From positions 1-21,932 of IMG/VR virus record IMGVR_UViG_3300010354_000780: a stretch of DNA of 21,932 bases, one strand, 5' to 3'. The translations under genes were made by a program, and so were the position numbers. Below, in pieces: positions 6,215-21,888 of this stretch (position 1 is the stretch's first letter; each line of letters begins with the position of its first letter). Below the pieces are notes generated by a model. That model was not told the origin of the DNA, searched no databases, and saw only the letters and a program-made list of their open reading frames with translations. Origin of the DNA: a virus.

Positions 6215-7225
6215 TTAAACGGTTTCTAATTTACCGCAACACACATCACACTGAACTAAACGACCTTCTTGTGTGCTTGTTTTTGTCCAACTTGATTCAA
6301 CACCATTAAACCATTTAATTGCTTCTTCTAATGTAGTGCTATGTAAATTATTGTTGTAAATTAATGGATTTATTTGTTCATTAATGAATCTATGAAATCC
6401 TTTTTTATAAGTTTCTGGTGCAAAACCAAGGTAACAACAAGGATAAACTTTACCATTTGCTGAAATATAAATTGATTTTACTTGTTTTGTAAAACAATTT
6501 AATTTTCTATTTGGGTCATATTCTGGATATGAGTATTTCTTTGTAGAATCATTTTGAAATTGAATTAAACTTTCAATATCTGTATGTCCATTCCATTTAC
6601 CCATTACATGCAATAAATTTCCCTTACGATCAAACACGGGTCCATTGTTTCTTCCATGATCTACTAATTCAAAATCTTTAAATCCATATTCAACGCTTCT
6701 TTGTTTTGCTGATTCAATTTGATGTTTGTTGTGTTCAAATATTATCATTTTCCATACGGCGTATCCACCTTTTGAAATAAATGATTTTGCATTTTCTATA
6801 ATTTTATTGAAATCTGTATCTTGACGATATAAATGATGTGTATCTTCCAAACCATCCAAACAAAAATCAATTTTTATATCTTCCATTTTTCCTAATTCTT
6901 GCCAAAAATCAATATTTCTAGCACTACCATTTGTGCTTATTTGCATAAAAAGGTTTGGTTTAATTTCTTTAAAATATTTGATTATGTCTAAACTTTCTAA
7001 ATTAGAAGTAAAATCTCCAAAATTACCGTTAATTAAAATCATATCTAATTTTTCAATAAAGTTAGGTAGAAATGATTTTTGTATTAGATCTAATGATAAA
7101 CTTGTTTCTTCATATCCACTGTTATACGGAAATCCAAAAACGTTTCTAGGACATCTAGGACAACGTGCATTACATAAACTACTAAATTCCATATGTAAAT
7201 GACGTATTTCTTCATACTTTATCAT
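6215..7225 (-). CDS. Radical SAM enzyme with Cys-rich SPASM-like C-terminus
   Basis: This 336-residue protein contains the radical SAM iron-sulfur motif C18-x3-C22-x2-C25 in 'SSLCNARCPRCPRN'. The radical SAM barrel continues through ISTNGSARNIDFW and IKIDFCLDGL. The C-terminal part holds further cysteines (LNCFTKQ, VYPCCYLGF, VQCDVCCGK) and the phrase 'YISANGKVYPCCY', typical of SPASM or twitch domains that bind auxiliary clusters. SPASM members mostly modify peptides or proteins, so the target may be a protein, but it cannot be read from the sequence. The ATG at 7225 is divergent from the polymerase-like gene at 7300. The gene is AT-rich. Marine phages commonly carry such enzymes without known roles. 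Confidence 0.85.
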   Translation of the reverse strand: MIKYEEIRHLHMEFSSLCNARCPRCPRNVFGFPYNSGYEETSLSLDLIQKSFLPNFIEKLDMILINGNFGDFTSNLESLDIIKYFKEIKPNLFMQISTNGSARNIDFWQELGKMEDIKIDFCLDGLEDTHHLYRQDTDFNKIIENAKSFISKGGYAVWKMIIFEHNKHQIESAKQRSVEYGFKDFELVDHGRNNGPVFDRKGNLLHVMGKWNGHTDIESLIQFQNDSTKKYSYPEYDPNRKLNCFTKQVKSIYISANGKVYPCCYLGFAPETYKKGFHRFINEQINPLIYNNNLHSTTLEEAIKWFNGVESSWTKTSTQEGRLVQCDVCCGKLETV

Positions 7226-9012: not shown

Positions 9013-9868
9013 TCCGCAAAATCAAAAAGATGAATATGATTTATTTTTTAATTTAGATGATAACATTCTTGTTAAAAAATGGGCACGTAAATTAGTTACA
9101 GCACAAAAACAGTATTCTATAGATGATCGTAAAAGATTTTATGGATTTAATAGTTTTGAAGAAGAAGTTGTAAAAGCAACAAATTATATTAATGAATGCA
9201 TTACCATTATCAATAATGATAAACCAATAATAGATAGAAAGTTTGATTCAATTTATGATACTGATACCTTAAATTACTTACACCATATATTTGAGATATA
9301 TCACGGTCTATTAGATAAACAAGATCATGATTTTTGGAATAATGCAAAAACAGAAACAAAAATAGCACTTGCCAATTTAAACATTGCAGTTCACAGAGTT
9401 GAAAATGTAATTTATGGTAATAATAAAAGATTTACAATAACTTATTTTGGATTACCAAAAACTGATTTTTTAACAAAAAATGATTATAGTTTTTTTACAA
9501 GAGAATACAAATTTGGAGATATTTTTATAAATTATGTAGAAATTGGAAAAACTATAGAAGACTTATGGCGTGATAAAGATGAATACATTGAACCAGAAGC
9601 ATTTCAACCATTTTGTAGATTTTCTGCAGATTTTACAGTAAAATTTTATGATGAAGATATCAATACTGTAAAAAATATAATGGAATCATGTTCCAAATAT
9701 TTTAATGAAAAGAAAAAATTTTTTAATAGTTTAGGTTATAAAAAATTAGAAAAAAAGTTATTACCAGGATTGCCAAAAATAGGAAGTTTAGTTTATAATA
9801 ATAAACTAGAAGTAATTAAAAATATTGAATCTAGACAAATGATAAAATTAGTTATTTTGTTGCCTTAA
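8987..9868 (+). CDS. Unknown 293-residue protein downstream of the polymerase core
   Basis: This protein is not recognised. It is rich in Lys, Asn, Tyr and Phe, mostly helical in the first 160 residues (YLHHIFEIYHGLL, TKIALANLNIAVHRVENVIY). A more beta-rich part follows (RFTITYFGLP, YKFGDIFINYVEIGKTIEDL, FCRFSADFTVKFYDED). The 'F-I-N-Y-V-E-I-G-K-T ... P-F-C-R-F-S-A-D-F' region looks like a conserved core, and I think relatives exist in marine myophages. ATG 8987 lies 26 bases inside the end of the polymerase-like gene, so the two are probably co-translated. Its end overlaps the helicase gene on the other strand by 17 bases. It is more AT-rich than the polymerase gene. A partner role is possible but unsupported by motifs. 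Confidence 0.65.
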   Translation: MQLKITLCNPQNQKDEYDLFFNLDDNILVKKWARKLVTAQKQYSIDDRKRFYGFNSFEEEVVKATNYINECITIINNDKPIIDRKFDSIYDTDTLNYLHHIFEIYHGLLDKQDHDFWNNAKTETKIALANLNIAVHRVENVIYGNNKRFTITYFGLPKTDFLTKNDYSFFTREYKFGDIFINYVEIGKTIEDLWRDKDEYIEPEAFQPFCRFSADFTVKFYDEDINTVKNIMESCSKYFNEKKKFFNSLGYKKLEKKLLPGLPKIGSLVYNNKLEVIKNIESRQMIKLVILLP

Positions 9869-11258
9869 TATTATTAAGCATTTGTCGCAATACAGTGCTA
9901 TTAACATCTGCTTGTATCTTGCCTGGTTGATCTTCGGGCACAGCATCAGTTGATGGTTTAACATTACTGCCACCCTTAATGCTTGCAAAGATACTGCTAC
10001 TTTGTTTCTTAAATTGTTGATAATCTGGATCTTCTGCAAGGTCACGAATACGCAGACTATCAATATCAAACTCTAACTCAATCTTTTGTCCAACGCCACT
10101 TGACGAACGTGTTTTCATAAGTTGTAGTTGATACTTGCCATGTTCACGCATACTACGGCTTGTAAAGATACCAAATAAGTTATCAGCAGTATTAATCTTG
10201 GAAATACCACCACTAATATGGCTGTGGTCAAACTCAACTTCTTCTACAGATGCACGGTTCAATTGTGACGCCGTAACAAGTAATATATCCATTTCTTTTG
10301 CAAAGTTACGTATTTCTTCACTTACATACTTGTCCTTGACGAACAAATCACTTGGACTTACTTTAGCACTAACTGGCATAAGCAAGTCAAGATAGTCTAT
10401 CATAACAAAATCTACACGACGACCTGTTCTAATTTGTAGTTCTTTGATATATGAACGGACATCGTTAATATTGCTTTGTGCTGGCATATACTTAATTTGC
10501 AATCTACCACTTTTTTTACCAAGCATTTTGACTTTGACTTCAATATCTTCGATGCTTTTGAATATATCACGAGATGGTGTATTAGTAAGCATACCATCAA
10601 TACGCATAGCAGTAAGTTCTTCGCTCAATTCAAGTGTAATATAAACGCCATTAAGACCAGCAAGTATCCAGTTACATGCTATGTTCTGCATAAACAGTGA
10701 CTTACCGCTACCACTGCCACCAGCAAAGATATTCAATTCACCACGATTAAAACCACCAAATAGTTTTTTGTCGAGTGTTACCCAACCACTACTTGTTTGA
10801 CCATTATTGTCCTTAATTTTAGTCAATCGTGCTATAGGGTCTGCAAAGTAATCTGTTCCTAAATCTTTTGTAAGACTAATTTGCACTGCATCTTTAATAA
10901 TCTTTTCTACAGGATCAAAATCACCCTTCTCAAGCATATCTGCGGCTTTAAGAATAGCACGCTCTAATTCTTTTTGTTTGGTAAAACCTTCAAACTCTTC
11001 TAAGAACCAACTTGTATGGTCATCGGTCATACCAGGTATAGACTGAAAACTATTATCCGTTGCCGCATTAATTTGTTCGTGCAGTGGCATAATAGTATGT
11101 TTTTCACAATGTTCTTTGATAAACTTTGCAGCACCTTGCAAACTACGGTCAAAGTTGTTTGGATTGAAAATATTTTGGACACGCACATAACTTTGTGGGT
11201 CTGCCAACATCATTTCAATGAATAGTTTTTGAACTTGGGTATCGTAATTTTTAGACAT
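9852..11258 (-). CDS. 41: Replicative DNA helicase, DnaB-like, T4 gp41 type
   Basis: This 468-residue protein is close in length to T4 gp41 (475). The N-terminal helical domain (about 1-150) precedes a RecA-like ATPase. Walker A is GGSGSGKS (180-187, Lys186). LELSEELTAMRID follows. Walker B is VDFVMIDYLDLL with Asp288. TASQLNRAS is the sensor segment, and KTRSSSGVGQ lies near the arginine-finger end. It would unwind DNA 5' to 3' at the fork together with the gp61-type primase encoded upstream in the same operon. The last 60 residues are a Pro/Asp/Gln-rich tail, possibly for partner contacts. The start is ATG 11258. A weak TATTAT/TATAGT lies upstream in the 43-base gap, so it may also have its own promoter. 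Confidence 0.93.
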   Translation of the reverse strand: MSKNYDTQVQKLFIEMMLADPQSYVRVQNIFNPNNFDRSLQGAAKFIKEHCEKHTIMPLHEQINAATDNSFQSIPGMTDDHTSWFLEEFEGFTKQKELERAILKAADMLEKGDFDPVEKIIKDAVQISLTKDLGTDYFADPIARLTKIKDNNGQTSSGWVTLDKKLFGGFNRGELNIFAGGSGSGKSLFMQNIACNWILAGLNGVYITLELSEELTAMRIDGMLTNTPSRDIFKSIEDIEVKVKMLGKKSGRLQIKYMPAQSNINDVRSYIKELQIRTGRRVDFVMIDYLDLLMPVSAKVSPSDLFVKDKYVSEEIRNFAKEMDILLVTASQLNRASVEEVEFDHSHISGGISKINTADNLFGIFTSRSMREHGKYQLQLMKTRSSSGVGQKIELEFDIDSLRIRDLAEDPDYQQFKKQSSSIFASIKGGSNVKPSTDAVPEDQPGKIQADVNSTVLRQMLNNIKATK

Positions 11259-12118: not shown

Positions 12119-13117
12119 TTACTTAATTTTTTTCATCATTAATTTTATTTTAAGACTATTACTTTGCTGAGATTTAATTATACTTTGCATTGTAAACACA
12201 TGACCATACTTAGCAACTGCATCTGCAACATCTTTTATATTAGGTTCCCATTCTGGAAATGCCACACTCCAACCATATTTTAATGCCGCATAAATCATTT
12301 TTTTGCCAGCTTCATCACGGTCAGGAACTACAATAATATCACGGTCAAGTGTTTCAATAACTTCTGCTTGAACATCATTTATTTCGTTACTACAAATAGC
12401 AATAGCATTAATTGCAACTGCATCTAACAAACCTTCTACTACAATACAAAACTTGGCATTGTGTTGTTGCTTGTCATATCCCCAAACAAGATTACTTGGA
12501 TAGTTACTGAAATACTTAATTTTCTTTTTACCATCTACAAATAATCTACCACTATATCCCATAGGTTTGTTTTGCCAAGTAAATGGAATTAATACACGGT
12601 CACGTAGTGATGCTTGATCTGTCCAGTAGAATTGGTCAATTTTATCACCAAACCCACGACTATCAAGATAATTAATAGCTGCTTCTAAACTATTATAATC
12701 TTCTTCAGTAATATGACCATCATTTAACCAACTTGTTATTGGACGACCAGGACACGGTTCACGTGCTTCATATGTTGGTAATTCACGTTGTTCAATAACG
12801 CCAGATTCTGTAGTTTCTTGACTTATTGCGAATAGCGCAAGACGACCTATTACTTCTTCGTCAAACCCAATCCATACCATCCAACGCCGCATTTTATAAC
12901 TTAAACGACGACCTGGCTGCCAACCTGTAGTAAAATGACAATTAAAACAGTGATAATTCACTCCACCTTCTGGTGTAACGTGAATACCACCACGACCACG
13001 AGTATCAGCATTGTGCCCAAGGTGATGACAGCATGGTGCATTAAAACTTATCCATCCACTTGGTGAAGTTTTACGCTTCCACGGCAAATGTGACAATACT
13101 TGGTCAGTAATTTCCAT
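12119..13117 (-). CDS. 61: DNA primase, T4 gp61 type
   Basis: This 332-residue protein has the primase layout. An N-terminal zinc finger has ligands among C29, C30, H31/H32, C57 and C60 (PCCHHLGH ... YHCFNCHF). A helical linker follows, then a TOPRIM domain with E228 in VVEGLLDAVA and D266/D268 in VVPDRDEAGK. Between them, 'DRVLIPFTW ... GYSGRLF' is typical of bacterial and phage primases. It would make RNA primers for lagging-strand synthesis with the gp41-type helicase encoded downstream. The ATG at 13117 lies 6 bases after a perfect -10 box and has no Shine-Dalgarno sequence, pointing to a leaderless transcript. The C-terminus is a Lys-rich tail (LKIKLMMKKIK). Confidence 0.92.
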   Translation of the reverse strand: MEITDQVLSHLPWKRKTSPSGWISFNAPCCHHLGHNADTRGRGGIHVTPEGGVNYHCFNCHFTTGWQPGRRLSYKMRRWMVWIGFDEEVIGRLALFAISQETTESGVIEQRELPTYEAREPCPGRPITSWLNDGHITEEDYNSLEAAINYLDSRGFGDKIDQFYWTDQASLRDRVLIPFTWQNKPMGYSGRLFVDGKKKIKYFSNYPSNLVWGYDKQQHNAKFCIVVEGLLDAVAINAIAICSNEINDVQAEVIETLDRDIIVVPDRDEAGKKMIYAALKYGWSVAFPEWEPNIKDVADAVAKYGHVFTMQSIIKSQQSNSLKIKLMMKKIK

Positions 13118-13152: not shown

Positions 13153-13937
13153 GGACGATAGTAGATATAATTCATAGTGCCACTAACTTGTGAAACCTTG
13201 AATCTTACAGCACGATATTTGCCTTGGAAATTAAAATAGTTTGTTCCACTGACATTTGCACAGTTTGCATAACTTACAGTAGTAAAACTATTGGCATTTA
13301 TAACTGATGCTGCATCCATACTTGCTTGTAGTTGTATGTTACCTGTAAAAGCATTTGATTGATACTGAACAGTTTGATAAACAGCACTGCCACGAACATA
13401 ATTGGCTGTAAGAAAACTACTTGTATATGCGACATTTACATAATTTGTATCGCTGTTATTGCTATATGTAAAACTATTGGCATTATAACTTGGTGTAAAT
13501 TCTGGATATACACCATCTTGTATTCGTGCTTGTCCTTGTGCTTGATAGTTGTCATCACTGTAAACAATTTCTTGTTCACCTTCACCATTAGTTGCAACTA
13601 TGCTGTAATTATATAATCCACCATTTATATTATCTAATAAACTACCTTCAATTAGACAAGTAGCAACACCTGTGCTACTGTAAACAAGATCTAAATTACG
13701 ACTAAACACTAATTCTTTTGTAGTCGGATCAATTAAATTAAATAAAACTGTGCTTTGTAAAAGGCTCACAGGTTTTTGGTCATTATTCTTGATAACGAAC
13801 TTAAATCTATTATCTACACCTTTATAAATTTGTAGAGGCTTTGCGTAAAACAACTGATTCTCCCTGTGTAGCGCAAGGTCACTATTCTTAACAACATTTA
13901 TAATTTGTGGATATAAATAACCTGAAATTTGCTGCAA
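13149..13937 (-). CDS. Virion structural protein, possibly baseplate or fibre (BppU-like N-terminus)
   Basis: This 262-residue protein is beta-rich and full of Asn, Ser, Tyr and Thr. Residues about 40-115 (NRFKFVIKNNDQKPVSL ... GGLYNYSIVATNGEG) look like the immunoglobulin-like N-terminal domain of phage baseplate upper proteins. The pattern is 'F-x-F-x-I ... kP-v-x-L-x-x-x-t-v-x-F-x-l ... G-x-Y-x-Y-x-I'. The C-terminal half (TYSNNSDTNYVNVAYTSSFL ... RAVRFKVSQVSG) resembles a binding or jelly-roll domain. The start is TTG 13937: a stop codon lies immediately upstream in frame and AAAAGG precedes it. An AATAAATA late-promoter-like motif lies 19 bases upstream. The assignment is by composition and weak pattern only. 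Confidence 0.7.
   Translation of the reverse strand: MQQISGYLYPQIINVVKNSDLALHRENQLFYAKPLQIYKGVDNRFKFVIKNNDQKPVSLLQSTVLFNLIDPTTKELVFSRNLDLVYSSTGVATCLIEGSLLDNINGGLYNYSIVATNGEGEQEIVYSDDNYQAQGQARIQDGVYPEFTPSYNANSFTYSNNSDTNYVNVAYTSSFLTANYVRGSAVYQTVQYQSNAFTGNIQLQASMDAASVINANSFTTVSYANCANVSGTNYFNFQGKYRAVRFKVSQVSGTMNYIYYRP
13912..13919 (+). promoter_or_regulatory. Exact TATAAATA on the plus strand, possible late promoter
   Basis: This exact late-promoter consensus faces the plus-strand gene at 13965, 45 bases upstream. It lies inside the start of the minus-strand structural gene, where it encodes Gly-Tyr-Leu-Tyr, so it may be chance in AT-rich coding DNA. Confidence 0.3.
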
Positions 13938-13957
13938 TTAAATGGACCTTTTAGAAT
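13929..13957 (+). promoter_or_regulatory. Sigma-70-like promoter giving a probable leaderless mRNA
   Basis: TTGCTG (13929-13934), a 17-base spacer (13935-13951) and TAGAAT (13952-13957) are followed by 7 bases and ATG 13965. No ribosome site precedes that ATG. The -10 region overlaps the oppositely directed late-like motif at 13957-13964. The box match is moderate. Confidence 0.45.
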
Positions 13958-13964
13958 ATTTATT
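13957..13964 (-). promoter_or_regulatory. Late-promoter-like motif AATAAATA
   Basis: On the minus strand AATAAATA lies 19 bases before the TTG start of the structural gene, with the AAAAGG ribosome site between. It sits base-to-base against the ATG of the divergent plus-strand gene. Confidence 0.45.
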
Positions 13965-14339
13965 ATGAGTTTTTCCCTTGAACAAATGCTTGAACAATAT
14001 CCGTTCTTAAGTTATATAAAATACCCCACCGCCGATTTTATTGGAATTATACAAAATTATGATGGTGATATACTTTCAATGTATGCATTCAATAAATTAA
14101 AGACAGAAGAAGATAAAAAAGGTTTTTTAGAAGCGGCAGAAATATGGTGGTGGGAAAGTAATCGCTTAATACCAATCAATATTTTCCTTAAAAATAGTTG
14201 GAATCAATATCGTTACAGCACAGTAACATTAACAACTAAAGATATTCGTGAGCAATGTGGTCATATTGTTAGTATTGCTAAACTTGCAGAACGCAGAACA
14301 AAACGTAGAGTTGTTCAGTTAGTTAAACGACTCGCATAA
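13965..14339 (+). CDS. Conserved marine T4-like phage protein of unknown function (WWWESNR type)
   Basis: This 124-residue protein has PTADFIGIIQNYDGDILSMY and AAEIWWWESNRLIPINIFLK, followed by a Lys/Arg-rich end (AERRTKRRVVQLVKRLA). The WWWESNR-x-I-P-I-x-I-F-L block is very distinctive, and I recall it in small hypothetical proteins of marine T4-like phages, so it is probably conserved. No function is known to me; the basic C-terminus could bind nucleic acid. I choose ATG 13965 over the TTG at 13929. The TTG reading would place the start inside the promoter, and the peptide from ATG begins the recognisable core. Its end overlaps the mini-DnaE gene on the other strand by 21 bases. Confidence 0.75.
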   Translation: MSFSLEQMLEQYPFLSYIKYPTADFIGIIQNYDGDILSMYAFNKLKTEEDKKGFLEAAEIWWWESNRLIPINIFLKNSWNQYRYSTVTLTTKDIREQCGHIVSIAKLAERRTKRRVVQLVKRLA

Positions 14340-14879
14340 CAGATTCATATGAACCATTACTAATTGTGCATATGAATAAGCGTGTGCTTTCTTAAAATAA
14401 TAACCTTCTGTAGGTTTAATCCATATCTCTTCGTTTATTTCTCGCCATCTTTTTCCGATAAGGTATCGTTTTGATGGGCGAATGATTGCCAATACCATAG
14501 CCAACATATCCATTGTAGTAGGAAGATGTTGTTGCAAGACATCATAATGATTTGAAAGATGAATAAGTTTGGCAACGAAATCACGCTCCTTTAATTTTTC
14601 CCACTGTGGTTCACGTTTACAGAGTTCGTCAAGATGCTCGTTACTGCGAACTTGATTATAAACGTGAACATTCAGTAGGTCAAGTTTCATATAACCTAAA
14701 TCTTCTGCTGTTTCATAATCTATATTAGATAATCCAGATATTGGATTAGCAGGTATTGGATTAACATAAACACCAGTATTGTGTTTTACAATTTCACCAT
14801 CACGGTGTATTGTAGCAGGCACATGTTTTATAAGTTTTAATATGGTTTCACGGTCACCAAAGTCAATATCAATATCCAT
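14319..14879 (-). CDS. Mini family C (DnaE-like) polymerase relative, 186 residues
   Basis: The protein opens directly on a catalytic-type motif, MDIDIDFGD (Asp 2, 4, 6). It then shows KHNTGVYVNPIP (compare KHAGGVVIAP in DnaE), YMKLDLLN with Asp67 where DnaE has its third metal-binding Asp, LAMVLAIIRPSKR (compare the ALYRPGP region) and YFKKAHAYSYAQLVMVHMNL (compare the FNKSHAAAYA region). It therefore keeps the order of the DnaE palm and fingers landmarks in about half the usual space and has no PHP or OB domain. The ATG at 14879 overlaps the stop of the zinc-finger gene as TAATG, so both are translated in step. It may be a non-catalytic or accessory derivative, or half of a two-subunit enzyme; activity cannot be judged. 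A longer reading from TTG 14885 is less likely. Confidence 0.8.
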   Translation of the reverse strand: MDIDIDFGDRETILKLIKHVPATIHRDGEIVKHNTGVYVNPIPANPISGLSNIDYETAEDLGYMKLDLLNVHVYNQVRSNEHLDELCKREPQWEKLKERDFVAKLIHLSNHYDVLQQHLPTTMDMLAMVLAIIRPSKRYLIGKRWREINEEIWIKPTEGYYFKKAHAYSYAQLVMVHMNLLCESFN

Positions 14880-15574
14880 TAGCAACCAGCCTCACTCAAT
14901 ATATGCCTTGTCATTTCAGTATCAGCAGGATAATCACGCAGATGCCGTTCCCAAAATGGTGGGTCAATAAAGGCTATTATAATCTCTAATTGATCTTCTG
15001 TCAACTGTGAAAGTTTTTCAGTGCCATTGTCACAACAATATATTACCCACGGACTTATGCGACCATTTTGTATGTGTTGTATAAGTCGATTTGGACTAAT
15101 ATGTGTGAAATATTCATTAAATTGATATTGTGGAAACTCTTCGCTCCACTTTTGCATTGTTACAATACTACGTTCTAATGCGTCTGTAGCACTTTCGTGT
15201 CGTAATAAATGAAATAGATATTCGCTGTATATTGCATCACGGCACCAATGGTCAATCTTAAAATTATTCTTAAGAACATAATCAGTAAATTGATCTACAT
15301 TAATAGCACTTATAGCAACACAGTGTCTTCCAAATTTTACAAAAGCACCATATAGTGAACTTTGGCAAAATTCTTCATAGGTTTTAAGTTTGGCACTGCC
15401 TTGTGTCAATTCATAGAATCGCAACCAAGCATTGAAACCAATAACAACACCTTTTTCATTTTTCTGCAATTCACGGCGTTTTGGTTCACACTGATGCACA
15501 TTCAGTGTGCTTTCACGACTGAATTTAACACCACAATATTTGCATTGATATTCTGTATCAGCAATTGGTTTCAT
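14879..15574 (-). CDS. Zinc-finger protein coupled to the mini-DnaE protein
   Basis: This 231-residue protein has an N-terminal zinc finger, C11-x2-C14-x12-H27-x-C29 (YQCKYCGVKFSRESTLNVHQC), followed by a basic stretch (PKRRELQK). The rest is helical, with FNAWLRFYELTQGSAKLKTY, NFKIDHWCRDAIYSEYL, GRISPWVIYCCDNG and PPFWERHLRDYPADTEM. I recall close relatives of the whole protein in T4-like cyanophages, directly before the same small DnaE-like gene. This suggests a conserved two-gene module. The finger probably binds nucleic acid or a protein partner. I choose ATG 15574, because the finger begins shortly after it and the longer reading only extends into the deacetylase gene. The gene overlaps the upstream deacetylase gene by 17 bases. 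Confidence 0.78.
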   Translation of the reverse strand: MKPIADTEYQCKYCGVKFSRESTLNVHQCEPKRRELQKNEKGVVIGFNAWLRFYELTQGSAKLKTYEEFCQSSLYGAFVKFGRHCVAISAINVDQFTDYVLKNNFKIDHWCRDAIYSEYLFHLLRHESATDALERSIVTMQKWSEEFPQYQFNEYFTHISPNRLIQHIQNGRISPWVIYCCDNGTEKLSQLTEDQLEIIIAFIDPPFWERHLRDYPADTEMTRHILSEAGC

Positions 15575-16094
15575 GTAATCTATGTTGTGCCTCACCAGTA
15601 ATATAATACTTGTAAGTGCTGTTGTCAAATCCTAAAACAACATCTTTATGTAGCGGCAGTTCATCTATATTAAATGGTTCTATGCGAATAATTTCATTGT
15701 AATATTGTGGAAAATTACCAAAATAAACTTTTGGTATTAGTAAATCTTTTACACAACTATTAATAAACTTATGATGTAAGTGTCCATACTCACCATGATG
15801 GTTATGTGTTAATAACAAATCAAAGTTAAATGGCACTTTTTTGCAGAAATCAGCTGCATCTATTTCACTGAATCCCAATTCACCACGCTGTACAGTATTC
15901 CAATCGTCATTAAATTCAGCGTGAATAGTTTTTATATTACGTTTATTCCAGAATTTTTGTAACTCAATACTGCGTTCATCATTTTCTTTATGTGTGAGAT
16001 AGGCAATAGTCCATTCAAACGGATATTTGTTTATAAATCCATAACCAAAAATTACACAATCATCAGGGTGAGCAACAAGACATAATGCTTTCAT
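15558..16094 (-). CDS. PIG-L/LmbE-family N-acetylglucosamine-type deacetylase
   Basis: This 178-residue protein belongs to the zinc-dependent PIG-L/LmbE family, which removes the N-acetyl group from GlcNAc-linked compounds. Visible motifs are the N-terminal 'CLVAHPDDCVIFGYG' (His9, Asp11, Asp12) and 'THNHHGEYGHLHHKFIN' (His105 and His108 as metal ligands). The middle contains the usual AYLTHKENDERSIELQKFW segment. Family members act on sugars in mycothiol, bacillithiol, GPI-anchor and antibiotic pathways; the substrate here is unknown. The ATG at 16094 overlaps the stop of the glycosyltransferase-like gene as ATGA. That coupling suggests the two enzymes act in sequence on one glycan or glycoside. 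It is slightly short for the family (usually 220 or more residues). Confidence 0.85.
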   Translation of the reverse strand: MKALCLVAHPDDCVIFGYGFINKYPFEWTIAYLTHKENDERSIELQKFWNKRNIKTIHAEFNDDWNTVQRGELGFSEIDAADFCKKVPFNFDLLLTHNHHGEYGHLHHKFINSCVKDLLIPKVYFGNFPQYYNEIIRIEPFNIDELPLHKDVVLGFDNSTYKYYITGEAQHRLHETNC

Positions 16095-19682: not shown

Positions 19683-20449
19683 TGTCTTTCCTTAACAAAA
19701 TTGTAGTATAGTTCTGCGATGGCAACTTGACCATCGGGATGTGTATGATAACCAGGATCTGGTCCTGTTAATGGATGGCTATCACAAAAAGCACCAAGTG
19801 CAAATTTTGGTGGTGCAAAATATTTTTGTAAAAACTGTGGTGGGAAGTCTGCACCCCAACCTTTACCGTGAATATATGTATTCCATCCATTAAACAAAAA
19901 AGGTATTTTTAGATAATCTAATTTCCATAATCCACTGAATAAAACCCAATTATCAACTTGACGTTTCCAATGTGCATCATATAAGAATGCAGCATAGCCT
20001 TCCATTGCTATACGAGTAGGTTTATCTACTTTTGCCAAACGATAATTGTGATCATAATTTTCAATAACACTAAACATGGTCTCACCTATCATACGATAGG
20101 GATGTGCGTCACCATAATTAAAATTCTTTAATCCATCTTCCCAAATATAACCATTGCGGTTTTCACGATGTGCACTATGATTGGGACTACCATCTTCTAT
20201 TTTTAAAAATTTTTCAACTGGAAACTCAATACGATCTTCTGTAGTGCTTGCAATGAATAACCAATCCGCACCATCTTTTATTGCTTCATCAATTTGTAAT
20301 CGGATTACATTATTACCAATACCTTGTCGTGCATAATTTTTAAGTTTTGCACCAAGTTTAGCAGCAAGTATTTCACTCCAATGTGTTCCACTGTATTCAG
20401 GCAAATGACTGACTGCACTAAAACTACAACCACACACTGCTATCTTCAT
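19679..20449 (-). CDS. SGNH-hydrolase-like protein (second of two)
   Basis: This 256-residue protein starts MKIAVCGCSFSAVSHLPEYS, where G-C-S-F-S (7-11) replaces the usual G-D-S of block I. NYARQGIGNNVIRLQIDEAI supplies a block II-like Gly and Asn. DWLFIASTTEDRIEF is the block III region. PGYHTHPDGQVAIAEL near the end provides His235/His237 with the 'H-P-x-G-x-x-x-x-A' form of block V. I recall proteins of this GCSFS type in many marine phages. The likely activity is an esterase or acyl hydrolase, but the substituted Asp means catalysis is uncertain. Its ATG at 20449 overlaps the uvsW stop as ATGA. Confidence 0.72.
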   Translation of the reverse strand: MKIAVCGCSFSAVSHLPEYSGTHWSEILAAKLGAKLKNYARQGIGNNVIRLQIDEAIKDGADWLFIASTTEDRIEFPVEKFLKIEDGSPNHSAHRENRNGYIWEDGLKNFNYGDAHPYRMIGETMFSVIENYDHNYRLAKVDKPTRIAMEGYAAFLYDAHWKRQVDNWVLFSGLWKLDYLKIPFLFNGWNTYIHGKGWGADFPPQFLQKYFAPPKFALGAFCDSHPLTGPDPGYHTHPDGQVAIAELYYNFVKERQ

Positions 20450-21888
20450 TTGTAATTACTCTTTTCTTGCGTAAACGGATACTTGGCCTCTTTATAAAAT
20501 GCTTTGCGTTTTGTTAGGTGACGTTTTGCAAAATTACAGTCAGCAGTTATATCCCATATCTGGACAAAATCCTTGTCTTCTGCTTTGCGGATTCCTCGTC
20601 CGATACTTTGGATGACACGAACAAAACTTTTACCAGGCTCAATAAGCACAAGATTGAAAATGCGAGGGATATTAATACCAACGGCTGCAACGCCGTAAGT
20701 AGCCACGATAATCTTATCACTAACGCCCGCAACTTCATCATAATGTTCTTTGCGATCCACAACTTTCATATCACCATGAACGAATACACTGTTTGGTAAT
20801 CGTGCAACTAACTCATCACCACATTCACGACGATCAACAAGCACAAGTGTATTACCAGTTTTAATAATTTCACTAATCATACTTGCAAGGTGATCTAATC
20901 GTGTACTGTCAGTAGTAAGATATTTAAGTTCTGCTTGATAGTTTTTGAACTGTGCATGTTCAACTGTTTGCACAATATTAACATGACACTCACTTAACAC
21001 ACCACGTTCTTGTAATTCAGACGCACTTAACTGTCCAAACACTTGACCAATTGAAACCAATAATGCAACTTGTTCAAATTTTTCTTTTGGAATTGTTCCT
21101 GTTAAACCCCAACGAATTGGCACATGTGCAAACTCATCAGTAAGCATTGCTTTAAGAACTTCTGCTTTTGCTTGATGCACTTCATCTACAATTAATGCAG
21201 TTACATTAACCATAGACAACCATTCTTTACTGTTTTTATTTGTTTTATATAAACTGTTTAGACTTTGCCATGTGCAGATAGTATGTGTTCGTCCAAGTTC
21301 TTTACGGTCACCAAAGTAAACACCAACATCTAAACCAAGATTGCGATAATCTACTTCTGTTTGTGTAACAAGACTTTTATTTGGAACAATAACAATAGTG
21401 CGTCCATACTTTTCTACACTATGTGATAGTGCGGCAGTCATAATTGTTTTACCAGCACCAGTTGCTACTTCTTGTATGCCTTGTGGATTTGCAAGAAAGT
21501 TATTGATAATTTCTACTTGATAATCACGAAGGACTATTGGTTGTCCTTCTTGTGGATGTGCCTTTGGCCAAACTTTATTAGCAAATGTATTTTCTGTAAT
21601 AGCATCAAATGTAAATTCTTGACGATTAGTTCGTTCATCTTCTAATTCAAAATCCCAATTGCGATCTTGTAACCATTCTATAATTTCTGGTAGAAGATTT
21701 ATGTAAGTAGAACCACCAAGTTGGAAGTATGGAACTTTACCGTCCCATCTTCCTAATTTTACACTTGGTAAATGTCGTGCATAAGGAACTTCATATTTGA
21801 ACTTAGCCACAAGTCTGCGGCGAGTATCAACATCAAGTCCTTCTATTTTGCAATTGACCTCATTACGAATAACAATTTTACATAACAT
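20446..21888 (-). CDS. uvsW: UvsW-type DNA/RNA helicase
   Basis: This 480-residue superfamily 2 helicase is close in length to T4 UvsW (about 500 residues). Residues 1-95 form the UvsW-type N-terminal DNA-binding domain (VPYARHLPSVKLGRWDGKVP). The core follows: the Q-like LRDYQVE, motif I ATGAGKT (142-148), motif II DEVH (235-238), motif III GLTGT (261-265), HGDMKVVDR, motif V ATYGVAAVGIN (396-406) and motif VI QSIGRGIRK (427-435). In T4, UvsW remodels forks, unwinds R-loops to end origin replication, and promotes branch migration in recombination. It is the first gene of a twelve-gene chain on this strand. The ATG at 21888 lacks a Shine-Dalgarno sequence and lies 7 bases after a -10-like box. 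Confidence 0.95.
   Translation of the reverse strand: MLCKIVIRNEVNCKIEGLDVDTRRRLVAKFKYEVPYARHLPSVKLGRWDGKVPYFQLGGSTYINLLPEIIEWLQDRNWDFELEDERTNRQEFTFDAITENTFANKVWPKAHPQEGQPIVLRDYQVEIINNFLANPQGIQEVATGAGKTIMTAALSHSVEKYGRTIVIVPNKSLVTQTEVDYRNLGLDVGVYFGDRKELGRTHTICTWQSLNSLYKTNKNSKEWLSMVNVTALIVDEVHQAKAEVLKAMLTDEFAHVPIRWGLTGTIPKEKFEQVALLVSIGQVFGQLSASELQERGVLSECHVNIVQTVEHAQFKNYQAELKYLTTDSTRLDHLASMISEIIKTGNTLVLVDRRECGDELVARLPNSVFVHGDMKVVDRKEHYDEVAGVSDKIIVATYGVAAVGINIPRIFNLVLIEPGKSFVRVIQSIGRGIRKAEDKDFVQIWDITADCNFAKRHLTKRKAFYKEAKYPFTQEKSNYK

Follow-up and report, generated by a model that had tools for sequence, protein, structure and literature searches.

Can a protein of 186 residues that opens directly on a catalytic motif of the DnaE-type (family C) DNA polymerases be a polymerase in its own right? 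The question is raised by a small reading frame in a 21,932-nucleotide stretch of viral DNA (IMG/VR record IMGVR_UViG_3300010354_000780; hereafter the window), for which a preliminary description had proposed a self-contained mini-DnaE. The frame lies on the minus strand at 14319-14879 (186 codons plus stop), and the encoded protein begins with MDIDIDF. Upstream of this sequence the window holds four codons in frame (GWLL) and then a stop, which leaves no room for a longer protein; the polypeptide therefore truly starts on the DIDID motif. In phage Atu_ph07 the RefSeq start of the homologous gene (NC_042013 gp074; L083:10001-10561) was placed 66 bases inside the conserved frame, so that the annotated gp074 lacks the DIDID motif. 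This is probably a start-site error.

The protein matched phrog_11778, a family of 197 profile positions annotated as 'DNA polymerase', with an E-value of 1.9e-60 (residues 3-185 on profile positions 7-193), and the same profile matched all 42 aligned homologs. The ordinary DnaE profile phrog_405 matched 41 of 42 family members (best value 2.1e-7). Judged from these sequence comparisons, the similarity to DnaE is far beyond chance, and the proposed relationship to DnaE was borne out. A Pfam search with the protein gave nothing over the cut-off, and a PDB sequence search with its profile returned no significant or relevant match; membership in the DnaE family therefore rests on the phage DnaE profiles together with the fold described below. 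Using tblastn, we found the protein in 63 jumbo-phage records, each covering at least 80% of the query, among them RaK2, 121Q, PBECO4, GAP32, CBB, PA5oct, Paride, Atu_ph07, Phosso and Vibrio 2.275.O, and relatives are present on at least 151 contigs in IMG/VR. A megablast search of the window against phages gave no match. The search of cellular genomes returned only four matches, three on contigs of ~3.5 kb and one on a contig of 335 kb, all with phage gene neighbours. These contigs have the gene order of jumbo phages and had been binned into MAGs, the 335-kb one into a MAG of Neomarinimicrobiota.

Joint alignment with E. coli DnaE confirmed that the landmarks noticed earlier, from DIDID onward, stand in DnaE order within the 186 residues. 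Residues D2, D4 and D6 fell on D401, D403 and D405, K65 and D67 on K553 and D555, R134-P135 on R639-P640, K164 on K758, and H166 on H760. In the E. coli enzyme, D401, D403 and D555 are the catalytic Asp residues, and D405 is an extra conserved Asp near the catalytic centre by which DnaE differs from PolC (PMC3919608); H760 is a proposed steric gate, described as invariant in Pol III alpha (PMC8485763). All three catalytic Asp had been claimed to be kept, and they are, but the trio consists of D2, D4 and D67, whereas D6 corresponds to D405, the Asp typical of DnaE rather than PolC. The four Asp were invariant in the 42-sequence alignment. In a larger set of 54 sequences, D2, D4 and D6 were each conserved in 53/53 and D67 and H166 in 54/54, the single row without the first three being a truncated contig; every sequence covering these positions retained them. 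The steric-gate His, the K-x-H helix and the R-P segment were likewise invariant or nearly so in homologs. Comparison with close relatives gave a dN/dS of ~0.14, and the gene is under purifying selection.

An AlphaFold2 model of the protein (mean pLDDT 85) was compared with known structures using VIA-align. The top 14 entries were all Pol III alpha or PolC (Z 5.5-9.0), and the next, unrelated row had a Z of 3.1. The best match was 5lew (Z 9.0, rmsd 5.8 Å over 184 residues). The alignments begin at the catalytic strand (residue 403 in E. coli, 462 in T. aquaticus and 420 in M. tuberculosis) and close past the K-x-H helix, with an E. coli range of 403-780. The predicted fold is thus that of the Pol III palm and fingers. 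Two outcomes that would have spoken against the preliminary description, a fold unrelated to the Pol III palm and homologs devoid of the Asp residues, were looked for and neither was seen. The rmsd to Pol III chains is high (5-6 Å), as expected for a protein that has almost no thumb and lacks much of the fingers. Indeed, the alignment with E. coli DnaE contains large deletions that remove nearly all of the thumb and the ADMLRRAMGKK segment of the fingers, which makes normal processive synthesis unlikely. The 186 residues span palm and fingers only, with no PHP domain, HhH, OB or clamp-binding motif and no Pfam hits of this kind. Also missing from the chain is the GRGS segment that binds the triphosphate.

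A search with PF07733 located this segment elsewhere. A GRGS-bearing reading frame was present in 7/7 isolate genomes examined that carry the 186-residue protein (GAP32, Atu_ph07, Phosso, Paride, 121Q, Vibrio 2.275.O and RaK2) and also in G001, a 338-kb relative of the window's phage, and was confirmed with a profile; in PHROGs its family is phrog_11127. In every genome examined it comprises ~170-200 codons, contains GRGS and ends in '..EFL(R/K/..)' immediately ahead of where DIDID would come. We refer to its product as the N-half and to the 186-residue protein as the C-half. By tblastn the N-half was found in 64 records, compared with 63 for the C-half, and the two lists of phages are nearly identical. 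The distance between the two genes, counted along the records, is ~30-44 kb in GAP32, 121Q, RaK2, Paride and Vibrio 2.275.O; in Atu_ph07, Phosso and G001 it is ~180-230 kb. The window, a 22-kb fragment, contains no N-half gene, and that of its own phage is therefore deduced from G001. We conclude, with a probability of roughly 0.85, that the 186-residue protein is the C-terminal half of a split Pol III alpha. The earlier idea of a self-contained mini-DnaE is not supported, because in relatives with complete genomes the GRGS half is a separate, distant gene. A protein that binds dNTP and metal and polymerises by itself, with no partner half, would account for the retention of all three catalytic Asp and the steric-gate His, but it would have to do so without a GRGS segment in its chain and would leave unexplained why every complete isolate genome examined has a separate GRGS gene that stops at the split point. 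We regard such stand-alone activity as very improbable.

The model of the N-half was of lower quality (pLDDT 71, with values <50 over residues 153-171 at its low-confidence C-terminus), and Foldseek gave no significant match to it in the PDB. Its VIA matches were modest (Z 3.6-5.1) and fell on Pol III alpha residues N-terminal to the range of the C-half (E. coli 277-384, Taq 295-443), such that the halves tile one palm without overlap. Taken together, the two halves resemble a single nucleotidyltransferase active site to which each polypeptide contributes a part.

A split polymerase of this kind has been predicted before. In the available text of Iyer et al. 2021 (PMC7824862), jumbo phages of 'group 2.2' are described as having, besides a family B polymerase, a minimal Pol III alpha specific to phages and encoded by split, distantly located genes, the N-terminal part being NTP-binding and the C-terminal part Mg2+- and template-binding. 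As far as that text describes the system, the 186-residue protein belongs to it: the C-half family (E=1.9e-60) and the distant N-half gene in relatives are common to both, as is the phage group with a family B polymerase, UvsW and no other Pol III domains. Two features of the window differ from the system as described there, namely a C-half that begins directly on DIDID and an additional one-piece DnaE of 570 residues in the window's subclade, which that portion of the paper does not mention. Earlier genome papers mention only the N-half, as a truncated or ordinary alpha subunit (PMC5259590, PMC6102473), and a literature search for experimental studies of the split Pol III halves found none. 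New relative to the 2021 prediction are the exact split site, the residue mapping, the absent thumb, the replication-gene neighbourhoods of both halves and the one-piece 570-residue DnaE of the window's subclade.

Like E. coli DnaE, the split form has the catalytic Asp trio, D405, K553, K758, H760 and the palm topology. The E. coli protein is a single chain of 1160 residues with PHP, thumb, full fingers, HhH, OB and clamp-binding parts, whereas the split form consists of two short chains without these (nearly all of the thumb is gone). Cyanobacteria also encode Pol III alpha in two distant genes, with inteins that splice the halves into a single chain. No intein-sized coding sequence was found ahead of the C-half frame in the window, where four codons precede the stop, and an intein origin of the split was accordingly rejected for the window.

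The coordinates of the features discussed here are collected in Table 1.

Table 1. Features of the window and the data by which each was assigned.
Feature	Position	Strand	Basis
C-terminal half (186 aa) of a probable split minimal DnaE-type Pol III alpha	14319-14879	-	phrog_11778 profile, homologs, AlphaFold model, residue map
DIDID metal-binding strand; Asp2/Asp4 = E. coli D401/D403, Asp6 = D405	14862-14876	-	alignment, conservation
K65-L-D67 = E. coli K553/D555, third catalytic Asp	14679-14687	-	alignment, conservation
FKKAH; H166 = E. coli H760, proposed steric gate	14382-14396	-	alignment, conservation, literature
Zinc-finger protein (phrog_11058) directly upstream of the C-half gene	14879-15628	-	PHROG profile, neighbourhood comparison
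Conserved opposite-strand gene (phrog_11637), 3' end overlapping 3' end of the C-half gene	13929-14339	+	PHROG profile, neighbourhood comparison
DNA primase of the conserved replication cluster	12119-13117	-	domain/PHROG profiles, neighbourhood comparison
DnaB/gp41-like replicative helicase of the cluster	9852-11258	-	domain/PHROG profiles, neighbourhood comparison
UvsW-like helicase, other end of the cluster	20446-21888	-	domain/PHROG profiles, neighbourhood comparison
One-piece PHP-less DnaE, 570 aa	7300-9012	+	PF07733 9e-40, PHROG profile, alignment

Both halves are encoded among replication genes. The C-half lies in a cluster with the conserved order uvsW, several small genes, zinc-finger protein, C-half, overlapping opposite-strand gene, a structural-like gene, primase and DnaB helicase. 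The N-half was found a few genes upstream of a gp44-type clamp loader in 6/6 genomes (G001, GAP32, RaK2, Paride, Atu_ph07 and SCTP-2). A GroES/gp31-like gene is close to the N-half in several of these six (L127:5001-7652; L199, L200, L201, L202, L188). In the window, the stop codon of the zinc-finger gene overlaps the start of the C-half gene (TAATG), and the zinc-finger protein had been put forward as a partner of the polymerase. Most relatives do have it as a conserved part of the uvsW-primase cluster, but no specific tie to the C-half emerged, and the two genes are several kb apart in many of them. Some relatives carry, between the C-half gene and its opposite-strand neighbour, a putative freestanding HNH homing endonuclease (L018:10588-11220), recognised by eye and with weak PHROG matches only; an extra ~0.5-0.7 kb is found at the same spot in L017, L025, L035, L052-L055, L068 and L069. 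At 6215-7225 on the minus strand, the window also encodes a 336-residue protein with an early Cys cluster (CNARCPRCP) that is radical-SAM-like by eye only and is kept near the replication cluster in close relatives.

The one-piece DnaE of the window contains a palm of its own, a thumb segment reduced in length and the ADMYRRAFAKK motif of the fingers. It shares with the split form the catalytic core and the lack of a PHP domain, as does the nearest relative found elsewhere in the phage collection (LR756508, 37.5%), but in these proteins the palm is contained in a single chain that retains the thumb segment and fingers motif. The phage of LR756508 was found to carry neither split half. As noted in the preliminary description, the 570-residue protein is a genuine DnaE relative that differs from the C-half throughout; few positions can be aligned between it and the split forms, and these are very divergent. 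The presence of two DnaE relatives in one window might suggest that the C-half is a degenerate fragment or a recent duplication of the longer protein. Among contigs that bear the C-half, however, only those of the window's subclade were found to carry the 570-residue DnaE; nine relatives have it, 83-95% identical and located downstream of DnaB on the other strand, and it was absent from 22 others with enough downstream sequence, one of them 86% identical in the C-half. With the C-half family present in many phages that lack the 570-residue gene, this distribution already contradicts a fragment or duplication; the purifying selection on the C-half gene also speaks against it, and the chance that this explanation is correct is negligible. 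The initial view that the C-half is not a broken copy is therefore upheld. The 570-residue DnaE is probably a recent gain beside an older split DnaE and a family B polymerase, repeated losses being a less likely source of its distribution.

We also searched the phages that bear the C-half for other polymerases. No full-length Pol III alpha was found elsewhere in the isolate genomes, in which PF07733 gave only the N-half over the cut-off. A family B polymerase scored over the Pfam cut-off in 7/7 isolate genomes and in G001, which thus carries both halves plus this enzyme; none is visible in the 22-kb window. Family A polymerases gave no match over the cut-off in phages bearing the C-half, and a family A enzyme was rejected as their main replicase.

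Because most Pol III domains are gone, the C-half could be a catalytically dead remnant with a structural or regulatory function, modulating the family B replicase or the host Pol III. The catalytic residues are all invariant across diverse phages, though, the dN/dS is ~0.14 and GRGS is kept in the partner N-half, and we consider a dead protein improbable. A more serious alternative, though still an unlikely one, is that the halves form an active nucleotidyltransferase other than a templated DNA polymerase, such as a terminal transferase, an RNA-end repair enzyme or a helper of primer synthesis. The deletion of most of the thumb and of the ADMLRRAMGKK segment would fit such an activity, as would the presence of a full family B polymerase. 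Against it, the steric-gate His, the K-x-H helix and the R-P segment, which Pol III uses for dNTP selection, are invariant or nearly so, and both half genes sit in replication clusters. We favour, with some reserve, a reconstituted pair that is an active templated polymerase.

For the split Pol III alpha, we infer physical association of the halves, catalysis and a biological role along the following lines. T4-like jumbo phages would carry a two-polypeptide minimal family C (DnaE-type) polymerase beside their family B replicase. A distant gene would supply the N-half, comprising palm helices and the GRGS loop holding the dNTP triphosphate and ending in '..EFL(R/K)', while the C-half would contribute the DxD strand and the third Asp together with its Lys, as well as the R-P segment and the 'steric gate' helix bearing K-x-H. 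The halves may bind each other non-covalently and restore a single active site of the pol-beta type. The resulting enzyme could carry out short, distributive template-directed synthesis near the helicase-primase, for example in gap filling, repair or primer extension. More tentatively, and we think this rather doubtful, it may be a second, thumb-less replisomal polymerase at the fork, with the N-half from the clamp-loader cluster and the C-half from the helicase-primase cluster, that works beside the family B replicase (e.g. in lagging-strand or primer hand-off synthesis) and to which the window's subclade has added a third, one-piece DnaE.

If the split reading is correct, two polypeptides carry the active site of this polymerase between them, the break falling exactly where the triphosphate loop gives way to the metal-binding strand, and a nearly thumb-less split enzyme would show how little of Pol III suffices for nucleotidyl transfer. 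Many jumbo phages would then hold a split Pol III beside their normal replicase, with a C-half that annotations often list as hypothetical. With the residue map and the neighbourhoods of both genes, this reading can be tested directly, and the window's subclade would provide a natural example of a phage with three DNA polymerases.
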